Notes under the pieces: generated by a model | What the model was told of the DNA's origin: nothing | What the model saw: the letters and a program-made list of their open reading frames with translations, nothing else | Database searches by the model: none | Shown: positions 34,652 through 64,000 of the stretch, piece by piece | Numbering within the stretch: position 1 is the first letter of the stretch | Layout: every line of letters begins with the position of its first letter | Position numbers and translations under genes: made by a program | Origin: Dehalobacterium formicoaceticum | GTDB taxonomy: Bacteria > Bacillota > Dehalobacteriia > Dehalobacteriales > Dehalobacteriaceae | Assembly: GCF_002224645.1 (NCBI RefSeq) | Contig: NZ_CP022121.1 | Span: 2,486,501 to 2,550,500 of the forward strand | DNA length: 64,000 nt | Direction of reading: 5' to 3'

Positions 34652-35549
34652 ATGAACGTGGGAAAAACAGACAAAAAAAAAGAAACTGGTTGATTATACA
34701 TGTAAAGGTGCCAATAAGGCGGGGTTTAGCGAGAAACTGATCAGCGACTTTCAACTGGAGTTTCCGAAAAGCTATCATGATTGTAAAATTATGGCGCGAA
34801 TTTCCCAGTATATAAAAAATTGAGAAGAAAGCCCTCTTTGCCTCCTGCCTTTTTGCCATACAGTGGAAGGGGAGGCATTGGGCGGATTAATTAATTTAAT
34901 GGATGGAAAATTTGGTCCCCGGGTGGCTGCCTATGCTTATCAATCTGTGGAAGAGCTTACAACCTTATCAGATATTGATTTTAGCCAAGGCAGAATCAGG
35001 GAAGTGCTCAAGGCATGCCAAATCCTTAAAGCTCAAGGAGAAAGGGTAGTTTTAGAAATTTCCGGATTTATGACAGTTTTAAACTCATTAATTGATCCTA
35101 CGAAAATTTTCGTTGCCTGGCGCAAGGATGCCGCAACGGTGGAAAAAATTTTACGGATCATAGCTGATAATCTTTATCCCTACTTTGTTGAAGCAAAAAA
35201 ATCCGGTGTGGATATCATCTCCTATGCGGATCCGGTGGGTAGTGTCAGAATTATGGGGCCTAAATATACTGAGATCATTGCCAAAGACTTTAACCTGCCC
35301 CTGCTGAAAAAAGCAGCGGCTTTAGCGGATGAAAACTGTATTATTCATCTATGTCCGAAAACAAGCTTAATTCTGTTGGGACTAGAGTTGGCAGAGAAGA
35401 AGGAAATCCCATTTTCCAAGAATATTAAATATGCAGAGGCCTGTCTAAATACCATCGGTAAGGAAAAAATCATCGGTCAATCTTGCATCAAAGATAGTCA
35501 AGGAGTTTTGTCCCACGGAACAATCAAGGCATTGTATTTATCAGTTTAA
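34652..35549 (+). pseudogene. Decayed URO-D/MtaA-type methyltransferase gene
   Basis: From about 34863 the frame encodes a good URO-D family core (VEGEALGGLINLMDGKFGPRV, SGVDIISYADPVGS, and the zinc motif H-L-C in CIIHLCPKTS). Similarity continues upstream (EESPLCLLPFCHT preceded by KLVDYTCKGANKAGFSEKL) but crosses an in-frame TGA at 34821-34823, and the ATG at 34652 is in another frame because of a nine-A run. The normal N-terminal 40 residues are not visible. I see no SECIS-like hairpin after the TGA. Either a pseudogene or a shortened protein starting at GTG 34863. Confidence 0.65.
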
Positions 35550-37343: not shown

Positions 37344-38356
37344 ATGCAGCATCTTACCGCCAAAGAAAGACTCCTTGCGGCAGCAAAAAAACAACAAACT
37401 GATAGACCGCCTTGTATTTGCCCTGGTGGCATGATGAATATGGTTTTCCAAGAGATTATGGAAAAATCAAACTGCCTATGGCCGGAAGCTCATGTTAATG
37501 CGGATAAAATGGCAGGTCTTGTTTATGCGCTAAATGAAGCAGGGGGCTTTGAAAATTACGGTGTACCCTTTTGTATGACGGTAGAGGCTGAGGCTATGGG
37601 TGCCCAGGTGAACATGGGAAATCTGATCTGTGAACCCCATGTTGTTGATTCTCCTTTGAAATCTTCTGCCCAGGTGGATTTATTAAAGCCCCTGGATGTA
37701 AATACAGGCAGGGCAAAAGTAGTCATTGATGCGATTAAAATTCTAAAAGCAAAAAACACTGAAGTGCCTATTATTGGTAACATGACAGGGCCGGTGAGTA
37801 TTGCCGGTACCTTGGTTGATATGTCTGCTTTGCTGAAAGAATTTCATATAAATCCTGCAGATACGGTAAAATTGCTGGATTTCATTGTCGAAAACCTGAT
37901 TGTTTTTGGCAAGGCGCAAATAGAGGCGGGGGCAGATGCTATTTGTATTGCCGAACCCAGCGGTACAGGGGAAATACTGGGTCCGAAGAGGTTCAGAGAC
38001 TATTCAGTAAAATATGTCAATGAGGTTTTGATGCACTGGATGTTCCTGTAAAAATTGTTCATATTTGCGGTGCCCTAAGAACAGTTTATAAAATTATTCC
38101 GGAATTTCATTGCAATGTTTTCAGCTTTGATTCTGTTGTCCCCATCGCGGAAATGAAATCATATCTCCCCGAAAAGGCTGTGATGGGCAATGTTAACTGC
38201 TATGCTTTAGGAAGCATGTCCCCAGAGAAGGTGGAAAGTCTTGCGCGATTTGCCATGGCTAAGGGAGCAGATATTCTGGCTCCGGCTTGCGGGCTTTCAA
38301 CCACCACACCCTTAATAAATGTTCAAAAAATGGCAAATGCCGCAAGGCAGCAATGA
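37344..38356 (+). pseudogene. URO-D/MtaA-type methyltransferase, single-base frameshift
   Basis: Two abutting frames make one complete URO-D protein. The first (to about 38030) covers PPCICPGGMMNM, VPFCMTVEAEAMG and ICIAEPSGTGEILG. The second resumes as DVPVKIVHICGALRTV with the H-x-C zinc motif and ends PACGLSTTTPL. The break is at TTTTGATG (38027-38033), where one extra G (TTTTGGATG) restores NEVLDALDVPVKIVHICG. This is either a recent mutation or a sequencing error, because all conserved sites are intact. Confidence 0.85.
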
Positions 38357-52607: not shown

Positions 52608-53408
52608 TCAGCTTTTGCTGAATGAGTTCATTGTATTCATCATGATTGCATCCTTCATGGTTCGTACATATTGGGCCACATGGGGGACGCATGCTGCACC
52701 GTATTTCTCCACAATTTTGACGATGGCGCTGCCTACAATTACCCCATCGGAAAATTCAGCCATCATAGCGGCCTGTTCCGGTGTAGAAATCCCAAAACCA
52801 ATGGCACAGGGAATATCCTTAGTCTCCTTGACAAGTTTTATCATTTCTGCCACATCGCCGCCGATTTTCTTGCGTACTCCGGTTACTCCTAATGATGATA
52901 CACAATATACAAATCCTTGTGCTTCACCGGCAATCATGCGAATACGTTCCCTGGATGTAGGCGCAATCATGGAAATCAAATGAACATTATGTTTTATGGC
53001 CCAAGGCTCCAGTTCACCTTTTTCTTCATAAGGGACATCCGGAACAATGACGGCGTCGACGCCCACCTCCTGACAATTCCTCATAAATCTTTCCGTCCCA
53101 TAAACAACAATGGGATTGACATAAGTCATAAAAGCGATGGGCACAGAACATGATCTTCGGATGCGGTTCAGCATGACAAATATTTTATCTGTTGTTGTTC
53201 CGCTCTCCAGGGCACGTTGATCAGCAGCCTGGATGACCGCTCCTTCGGCAACAGGATCAGAAAAAGGAATACCCAGCTCTATTAAATCTGCTCCCGCCGC
53301 TGCCATCTGATACACTAATTCTTCAGTTACCTCCAAATCGGGATCACCTGCCGTGATAAAAGGAATAAATGACTTACCGTTTGCAAAAACCTGGGCTAAT
53401 TTATTCAT
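52608..53408 (-). CDS. trpA: Tryptophan synthase alpha subunit
   Basis: 266 residues. Cleaves indole-3-glycerol phosphate to indole and glyceraldehyde-3-phosphate. The catalytic glutamate is in [13 protein letters not shown] and the aspartate in [13 protein letters not shown]. Loop GVTGVRKK and the phosphate-binding GFGISTPEQ and VIVGSAIV are present. It overlaps the trpB end by eight bases. Only trpB and trpA are present here; trpE, G, D, C and F are not adjacent. Confidence 0.96.
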
Positions 53409-54593
53409 AGATATTCACCCCCTGATAACGTGCTATCGCCGCAACGTCTTTATCGCCTCTTCCGGAAAGGCAGATCACCATCACTTGATCAGGACTCATC
53501 TGGGGTGCTAGTTTTTGAGCATAGGCAACTGCATGGGCGCTCTCAATGGCCGGGATAATCCCTTCGGTAAGGGCAAGATAGCGGAATGCCTCTACCGCTT
53601 CATCATCTGTCACCGGCACATATTCTGCCCGGCCCGTATCATAGAGAGCCGCATGCTCCGGTCCGATGCCGGGATAATCCAAGCCCGCCGAGATGGAATA
53701 AACCGGTGCAATCTGACCGTATTGATCCTGACAGAAGTAAGATTTCATTCCATGGAAAATGCCCACGGTGCCCTTTGCAATGGTTGCAGCCGTCTTATCG
53801 GTATCAATGCCGTGTCCGGCAGCCTCGCAGCCAATCAGGCGGACATTTTCATCATTAATAAAATTATAGAATAGTCCCATGGCATTACTCCCGCCCCAAC
53901 ACAGGCGAGGAGCACATCCGGAAGCCGCCCTTCCTTTTCTATGATCTGCCTTTTAACTTCACGGCCAATGATACTTTGAAAATCCCGAACTATGGTGGGG
54001 AAGGGATGTGGACCCATGACCGACCCCAGCACATAGTGGGTATCCTTTACCCGCTCGGTCCATTCCCGCATCGTTTCATTGACCGCATCCTTTAAGGTTT
54101 GGGTGCCGCTTTGCACCACATGTACCTTGGCACCTAATAGTTCCATACGGAAAACATTGAGGATCTGCCGGTCTGCATCTTCTTTGCCCATGAATATTTC
54201 GCATTTCATACCCATGATTGCCGCAGCGGTTGCAGTGGCAACACCATGCTGTCCCGCCCCGGTCTCGGCGATGACCCGGGTTTTACCCATGCGTTTCGCG
54301 AGAAGTACCTGGCCCAGCACATTGTTGATTTTATGGGATCCGGTATGATTAAGATCCTCCCGTTTAAGATAGATTTTGGGGCCGCCTAAATCCTCCGTCA
54401 TCCTTTCTGCATAAAAAAGCAATGATGGCCGTCCGGCATAATTATTCAGCAGTTCCGTAAGTTCCCCGATAAATTCCGGATCATCCTTATACTGACGATA
54501 TGACTCTTCCAGCTCAATTACGGCATTCATCAGGGTTTCCGGAATGTATTGTCCGCCGTGGATGCCAAATCTTCCTTTTGACATGTTAGTCAA
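53401..54593 (-). pseudogene. trpB: Tryptophan synthase beta subunit, single-base frameshift
   Basis: The N-terminal frame (54593 down to about 53897) has the PLP lysine ([13 protein letters not shown]) and [11 protein letters not shown]. The C-terminal frame (from about 53890) resumes with [23 protein letters not shown] and ends [11 protein letters not shown]. At 53893-53897 the minus strand reads GTTGGGGCGGG where one more G restores [11 protein letters not shown], the conserved phosphate-binding motif. So one base is missing from a G run. All other features are intact, so a sequencing error or a very recent mutation is likely. Together the frames cover a full-length TrpB of 397 residues. 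Confidence 0.9.
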
Positions 54594-62959: not shown

Positions 62960-63066
62960 TGCATTTTGGAATATGAATTAACTTCGCAAAATCAGTGCTT
63001 AAAAAGCAATTCTCAGGAACTATATTACCTGCGGTTATAACTATATCATACCAGGAGATGGAAGCA

Positions 63067-64000
63067 TTGGCAGAGATCAATTCCATTAAAGAATTACGAG
63101 AGCAACTCCAAAGGGCAATGAGCCTTTCTAAATGCAGGAAGTGCGGATGCATGGAGGAGACTTTAAAAACATTGAAGATAGAACTCTCAAAATCCAAAAA
63201 AGACCAAGATAATTTCCCTGATTTATTCGAGCCATTATCGGCGTTATTGAATGAGGTAGAAAATGCACTTAATAAAATGGATCCCATTGAATATACCTGA
63301 CTGGGATGTAAACAATGCTGGTCAGCAGAAATTACGAATACTTTTACAGAAACCTTTCCCAGGTTAAATGGAATACATTCCATAGAAACTATTCTCGGTA
63401 ACAGCAGTGATTCCGGCTGTCTTCCTGCAATTGGCGAGTATCACCTGTTATCAATAGGCAAAAATTATCCGGTGGCCATATCCACCTTGGGCAATTCAGA
63501 GCTTGCTGATAAAATTTCGGAGTTAAAATCAAATGGCTTAAGTATTGTGGGTAAAACAGAAACCGAAAACATCGGTGTCGAAAAGATAATCAAAAATATC
63601 CTGGCAGTACCTTCGATTAAATATCTGATGTTATGCGGTGCAGATTCTGAGGGGCACTACAGCGGCAACACGTTGCTGTCTCTTTGGGAAAACGGCGTTG
63701 ATCATAAAATGCGCGTTATTGCTTCAAAAGGGAAAAATCCTGTTTTATCAAATTCGTCACCGCAGGAAGTAGATGTTTTTCGCAATCAGATAGAAGTTAT
63801 TGATATGATTGGCTGTGAGGATTTAAGCAAAATTTTAGAGAGCTTAGGAGAGCTGTCCGAAAAGGCTGAAAATAGCTGTAATTCTAATAGCAATTCTATT
63901 GATAACTGTACATTAGAAAATGAAGAAACTGAAAAACCGTTAATCCTATCCTTTGATACAGTTAAAACGGTTAAAACATTTGATACCGTTGAAACAATTG
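63067..64000 (+). CDS. MtrA-like methyltransferase subunit, candidate selenoprotein (in-frame UGA; runs off the window)
   Basis: One reading frame continues across TGA 63298-63300 to the window end. N-terminal part: a helical region with C-x-x-C-x-C (KCRKCGCMEE) and DPIEYT; then U-L-G-C-K-Q-C-W. After that comes a domain like subunit A of tetrahydromethanopterin S-methyltransferase: YPVAISTLGNSELADKI, IVGKTETENIGVEKIIKNIL, YLMLCGADSEGHYSGNTLLSLWENGVD, IDMIGCEDL. As I recall, related bacterial proteins have cysteine where the UGA falls (Y-x-C-L-G-C), the mark of a selenocysteine site. Start: TTG 63067 has AGGAG nine bases upstream; GTG 62995 is the longer choice without one. The tail is Asn/Ser-rich. 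MtrA-like proteins bind corrinoid, fitting the DUF1638 neighbour. Confidence 0.8.
63298..63335 (+). promoter_or_regulatory. UGA codon and SECIS element of the MtrA-like gene
   Basis: Nineteen bases after the UGA comes a GGUC loop in the apical hairpin UGC-UGGUCA-GCA (63316-63327), almost the same as the UGC-AGGUCU-GCA apex of E. coli fdhF, where the GGU is 18 bases after the UGA. A second lower stem GTAA/TTAC (63308-63311 and 63332-63335) closes the element. Sequence, loop and distance all fit SelB recognition. Confidence 0.8.

Follow-up and report, generated by a model that had tools for sequence, protein, structure and literature searches.

The locus described here raises the question of whether a UGA codon inside a gene for a corrinoid protein is read as selenocysteine (Sec) and, if so, what such a residue could do beside a cobamide. 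The window analysed is a 64,000-nucleotide stretch of the Dehalobacterium formicoaceticum genome, at G000:C1:2486501-2550500, and the gene in question, a member of the MtrA/DUF4346 family, begins on the + strand at 63067 and is cut at 64000 because the window ends there. Its TTG start, which aligns with the GTG start of a homologue in another genome of the phylum (G233), lies 9 nt 3' of an AGGAG ribosome-binding site (63053-63057, + strand). The TGA at 63298-63300 (+ strand) is in frame, in the context M-D-P-I-E-Y-T-U-L-G-C-K-Q-C-W counted from the TTG at 63067, and is followed by 233 open codons inside the window. The read-through frame (L009:1068-2282) runs on to a TGA stop at L009:2280-2282, 281 nt past the window (window position 64281), giving a product of 404 residues with one Sec, at residue 78. 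Since a UGA also serves as the ordinary stop of this gene, the codon is not globally recoded. A DUF1638 gene (PF07796; 62312-62959, + strand) is located 107 nt upstream and is possibly co-transcribed with it; this linkage is not conserved in G233 or in G445, the third genome with a UGA-bearing homologue. Judging from sequence comparisons, we place at roughly 0.88 the probability that the D. formicoaceticum gene encodes a genuine selenoprotein that is also a corrinoid protein, a figure that covers both properties jointly and does not extend to a role in metal chemistry.

Alignments with homologues continue through the UGA, at identities of 52, 52, 45, 33 and 30% (45-52% in the three closest); the column is ungapped and is occupied by Cys or UGA. 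Full-length homologues are rare, occurring in two or three genomes per draw of 399 from the phylum, and searches in D. formicoaceticum's own family and class found none. The genomes sampled from the phylum contain three full-length members, in D. formicoaceticum, G233 and G445, which represent three different families, and TGA occupies the identical codon in 3/3 (YTULGCKQCW in the window, YTULGCARCW and YTULGCNICR in the other two). Cys stands at the column in three further full-length homologues, from a Chloroflexota MAG (YACLGCDYCY), a Paraburkholderia plasmid (YECLGCEICF) and a Planococcus plasmid (HNCLGCEVCF). Residues C23, C26, C28, U/C78, C81, C84 and H197 (window residue numbers) are invariant in all six proteins; they include a C23-x-x-C26-x-C28 motif (KCxxCxC; 63133-63150, + strand) and a U78-x-x-C81-x-x-C84 motif (ULGCKQC; 63298-63318, + strand), of which the UGA is the first position. 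These alignments bear out the original prediction that the open frames on both sides of the UGA belong to one protein and that Cys would be found at this column in homologues.

Two other loci, G439 (L086) and G479 (L085), hold apparently decayed copies of the family with Cys at the Sec column and the MtrA part lost. An architecture of N-terminal domain plus DUF4346 without MtrA was considered for them and rejected, as internal stops or frame changes suggest decayed genes, and only the Cys column and the neighbouring genes were used from these loci.

If the UGA were an ordinary stop or a nonsense mutation, the locus would be a pseudogene or two separate ORFs, and standard ORF calling does split it in two. 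However, the codon is shared by three distant genomes, the halves around it are intact and 52% identical in G233 and G445, and selB is present in all three UGA-bearing genomes, which makes this reading highly improbable. A sequencing or assembly error at a true TGT or TGC codon has a negligible probability even for a PacBio-only assembly (PMC5597755), because the TGA recurs at this codon, followed by a GGUC hairpin, in two other genomes that were assembled independently, and the SECIS-like apex occurs only in TGA forms.

The genome search located selB at G000:C1:719242-721137 in D. formicoaceticum, with a selA-like ORF directly upstream (recognised by its sequence and its place beside selB) and the gene for tRNA-Sec (selC) 6 kb further on. 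The selD gene (L066, G000:C1:806763-807683) has an in-frame UGA in TAAGUAAK and thus encodes a selenoprotein itself. G233 contains selB, as well as a selD gene with a UGA; in the 76%-complete assembly of G445, selB was present and selD was not found. SelB and Sec-tRNA, steered by a hairpin just 3' of the codon, would insert Sec at UGA 63298.

A candidate SECIS hairpin follows the UGA, with the apex UGCU-GGUC-AGCA at 63316-63327 (+ strand) and its GGUC at 63320-63323, 19 nt after the codon. Both this hairpin, at this spacing, and the Sec machinery had been anticipated in the original prediction, and all the checks that it had listed as able to refute it were decided in its favour. The apex UGC-N-GGUC-N'-GCA is common to all three UGA genes, always with a spacing of 19 nt between the UGA and GGUC (GGTC in the DNA), and its closing pair is U-A in the window and G233 and A-U in G445: the DNA starting 16 nt after the TGA reads TGCTGGTCAGCA in the window, TGCTGGTCAGCA in G233 and TGCAGGTCTGCA in G445. 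G445 codes for Arg-Ser where the others code for Trp-Ser, and this first-base change is offset by a silent third-base change in the Ser codon that restores the pair, suggesting that what is conserved here is the RNA rather than the protein. In the Cys genes the Trp/Arg-Ser pair is replaced by Tyr/Phe-Pro and the GGUC is absent. The G445 apex is identical to that of E. coli fdhF, which is UGC-A-GGUC-U-GCA with GGUC 18 nt from the UGA, in agreement with the fdhF comparison made in the original prediction.

Among synonymous shuffles with each gene's own codon usage, the apex arose by chance at frequencies of 0.038, 0.0065 and 0.0005 (3.8%, 0.65% and 0.05%) in the three UGA genes, values that are not independent because the genes share ancestry. 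Energetically the window hairpin does not stand out, as 19% of synonymous shuffles fold equally well and the constrained fold is ordinary; a moderate z of -2.4 belongs to the unconstrained fold, which pairs the UGA itself, so the minimum free energy of the 44-mer taken in isolation was discarded as evidence. A competing fold wins over the hairpin in G233, and the folding energy is convincing solely in G445 (z -4.6). Given the ordinary energy in the window and the competing fold in G233, the case for a SECIS element rests on conservation and one swapped pair, not on stability. Covariation was not significant (175/500 shuffles), three sequences being too few for the count to reach significance in this test. 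Rfam gave no SECIS family match in 301 nt of sequence surrounding the UGA, and comparative evidence was therefore used.

A second selenoprotein had also been proposed in the same window, a claim that was not confirmed: the candidate codon located in this analysis, TGA 34821 in a gene for an MtaA/UroD-type methyltransferase (34704-35549, + strand), looks more like a product of gene decay than a Sec codon. The gene has shortened termini and lacks a GGUC hairpin after the TGA, and Ala stands at this column in the window paralogue at 37344-38051. That paralogue (+ strand), an MtaA-like methyltransferase, has lost its own C-terminal third after EVLMHWMFL. Elsewhere in the window, trpB (53401-54593, - strand) is split into overlapping frames at 53835-54593 and 53401-53880, reflecting either a frameshift or an indel error of the PacBio-only assembly.

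The product of the selenoprotein gene is predicted to be a soluble corrinoid protein, in which a Cys/Sec-rich N-terminal region carrying KCxxCxC and UxxCxxC precedes an MtrA-type cobamide domain, whose axial ligand is a His, and DUF4346 comes last. The N-terminal 120 residues had no Pfam family match. The MtrA corrinoid-binding domain (PF04208) spans 63433-63900 (+ strand) with an E value of 2.5e-34 and a score of 118.9, above the Pfam gathering cut-off of 25 bits, and the C-terminal PterinBD-DUF4346 domain (PF14251) was located by Pfam beyond the window. In MtrA the cobalt is ligated by a His, which forms a pair with a Glu (His84/Glu54; PMC4915002); the equivalents in the window protein are H197 (63655-63657, + strand) and E167. 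Because the domain keeps both the cobalt-ligating His and the Glu that holds it, cobamide binding is very probable.

These equivalents are shared with methanogen MtrA (methyl-H4MPT:CoM methyltransferase; PF04208, PDB 5l8x and 5laa), whose corrinoid domain is homologous. However, the window protein has no membrane anchor, possesses the N-terminal Cys/Sec region and DUF4346, and falls below the cut-off of the methanogen MtrA equivalog TIGR01111 (114 versus 249 bits). It is also below that of the equivalog NF002128 (PRK00964.1-6; 364 versus 568 bits), to which it aligns over nearly its full length. Since the architecture and the curated cut-offs contradict it, the canonical Mtr role is excluded. 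The initial description of the protein as an MtrA-like corrinoid subunit was right as to the MtrA domain, but the protein is not part of the Mtr complex of methanogens, the membrane anchor being replaced by DUF4346. Pfam and NCBIfam scans of the window protein gave no match to an HgcA/CFeSP family model. AlphaFold models built from a two-sequence alignment (pLDDT 39 and 47) were too poor to place the Sec near the corrinoid.

The Cys-form bacterial MtrA-DUF4346 proteins (near NF002128/PRK00964.1-6; Planococcus WP_051627662.1) are composed of the same three parts, with KCxxCxC, CLGCxxC and the His of GHxxG, but they contain Cys instead of Sec, lack the SECIS apex and, in Planococcus, are accompanied by a Zn/Cd/Pb ATPase. 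On two Planococcus plasmids (L088:3791-8175 and L089:11838-16222), genes for an ArsR/SmtB regulator, a cation-binding protein/cation transporter (metal chaperone) and a P-type ATPase precede the MtrA-DUF4346 Cys gene, which is found 83 nt after the ATPase, a member of the Zn/Cd/Pb subfamily. For a third Planococcus plasmid the ATPase entry is missing from the gene table, which is incomplete. The Chloroflexota MAG gene is flanked on both sides by such ATPases, with ArsR-like and lspA genes nearby, and the decayed G479 copy adjoins ArsR and a truncated ATPase; no metal-export ATPase neighbourhood was found at the Paraburkholderia locus. The shared operon of the Cys form and a Zn/Cd/Pb exporter is the first functional lead for an uncharacterised family usually named after the methanogen enzyme. 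A "putative methyltransferase" on the cadmium plasmid pGIAK1 was set aside, as its identity is not fixed by the published description.

At the loci inspected, the three Sec genes do not lie beside ATPase operons, and a metal role for the Sec forms is therefore one that we infer. No conserved operon was found among the Sec forms, the neighbouring gene encoding a phosphoglucomutase in G233 and a GGDEF/HD protein in G445.

For the Cys/Sec site, a soft-metal or thiolate site is ranked first, followed by an Fe-S or redox activator, a methyl-accepting selenolate and, as a slim chance, some other function. The original prediction had put forward redox control, or a ligand or methyl-acceptor role, as conceivable functions of the selenolate. 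We tentatively suggest, as the least certain point of this analysis, that the five Cys and the Sec could together make up a single site of the soft-metal or thiolate kind, at the service of the corrinoid. The selenolate would be the most reactive ligand or nucleophile of that site, and the chemistry would be metal(loid)-linked or that of organometal methyl compounds. A narrower and rather unlikely version is that of a B12-dependent metal(loid)-handling protein, in which the site would hold a soft metal such as Cd, Pb, Hg or As, the MtrA corrinoid would move a methyl group to or from the metal, and the Cys form would be carried on metal-resistance plasmids. The mercury-methylating HgcA (NF040863), likewise a corrinoid protein able to carry Sec in some genomes, offers a precedent for metal-methyl chemistry, but it differs in its CFeSP-type corrinoid domain and CU motif. 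If true, the metal-methyl reading would mean that corrinoids have, besides HgcA, a second and unrelated route to organometal chemistry.

Alternatively, the Sec/Cys region could house an iron-sulfur centre, or a redox centre of the dithiol/selenothiol type, and reactivate Co(II) reductively in cis, like the Fe-S domains of CFeSP or RamA-type activators; it would then have no part in metal resistance. CxxCxxC and CxxCxC make a plausible set of cluster ligands, phmmer gave a local but non-significant likeness (E 0.3) to the CxxCxxC stretch of PsaC, and the window encodes several corrinoid methyltransferases as well as an activator. This explanation is nevertheless somewhat doubtful, as Cys forms are found in Planococcus and Paraburkholderia, which are generally aerobic genera, three loci adjoin metal-export genes, and Sec would be an unusual ligand of an Fe-S cluster.

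A further possibility, for which we see only a small chance, is that the selenolate accepts or donates the methyl group, with methyl-Co(III) giving CH3+ to Se or Se attacking a methylated substrate, so that a single chain would act as a two-step methyltransferase. The His-ligated cobalt of MtrA shuttles methyl groups between methyl-H4MPT and the thiol of coenzyme M (PMC4915002), selenolates surpass thiolates as nucleophiles, and UxxCxxC is found as well in the Sec enzyme GrdB, which acts on carbon substrates (PMC13188914); against this, Cys works in the homologues. GrdB of glycine reductase and PrdB of proline reductase (UxxC/UxxCxxC), from anaerobic Bacillota, have the same local Sec motif as the window protein, but they show no sequence family match to it and have no corrinoid.

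The May 2026 inventory lists 119 prokaryotic selenoprotein families and subfamilies, none of them MtrA or DUF4346 (PMC13188914), so the earlier remark that an MtrA type is not on the classical list also holds against the present one. NCBIfam 20.0 has no selenoprotein model for the MtrA/DUF4346 family, and searches on MtrA selenoproteins and on DUF4346 found no report of such a selenoprotein in the literature available without subscription; an earlier database annotation is possible. The gene would thus add to the current inventory a selenoprotein family that it lacks, and one with a cobamide domain. The host is a dichloromethane-eating bacterium with an energy metabolism based on corrinoid methyl chemistry, and because D. 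formicoaceticum is in pure culture the selenoprotein claim is testable. A scan of viral contigs for homologues detected only a solo DUF4346-like protein (L060:4971-5318), located 3' of an ORF resembling radical-SAM genes, which hints at functions of DUF4346 beyond corrinoid proteins.
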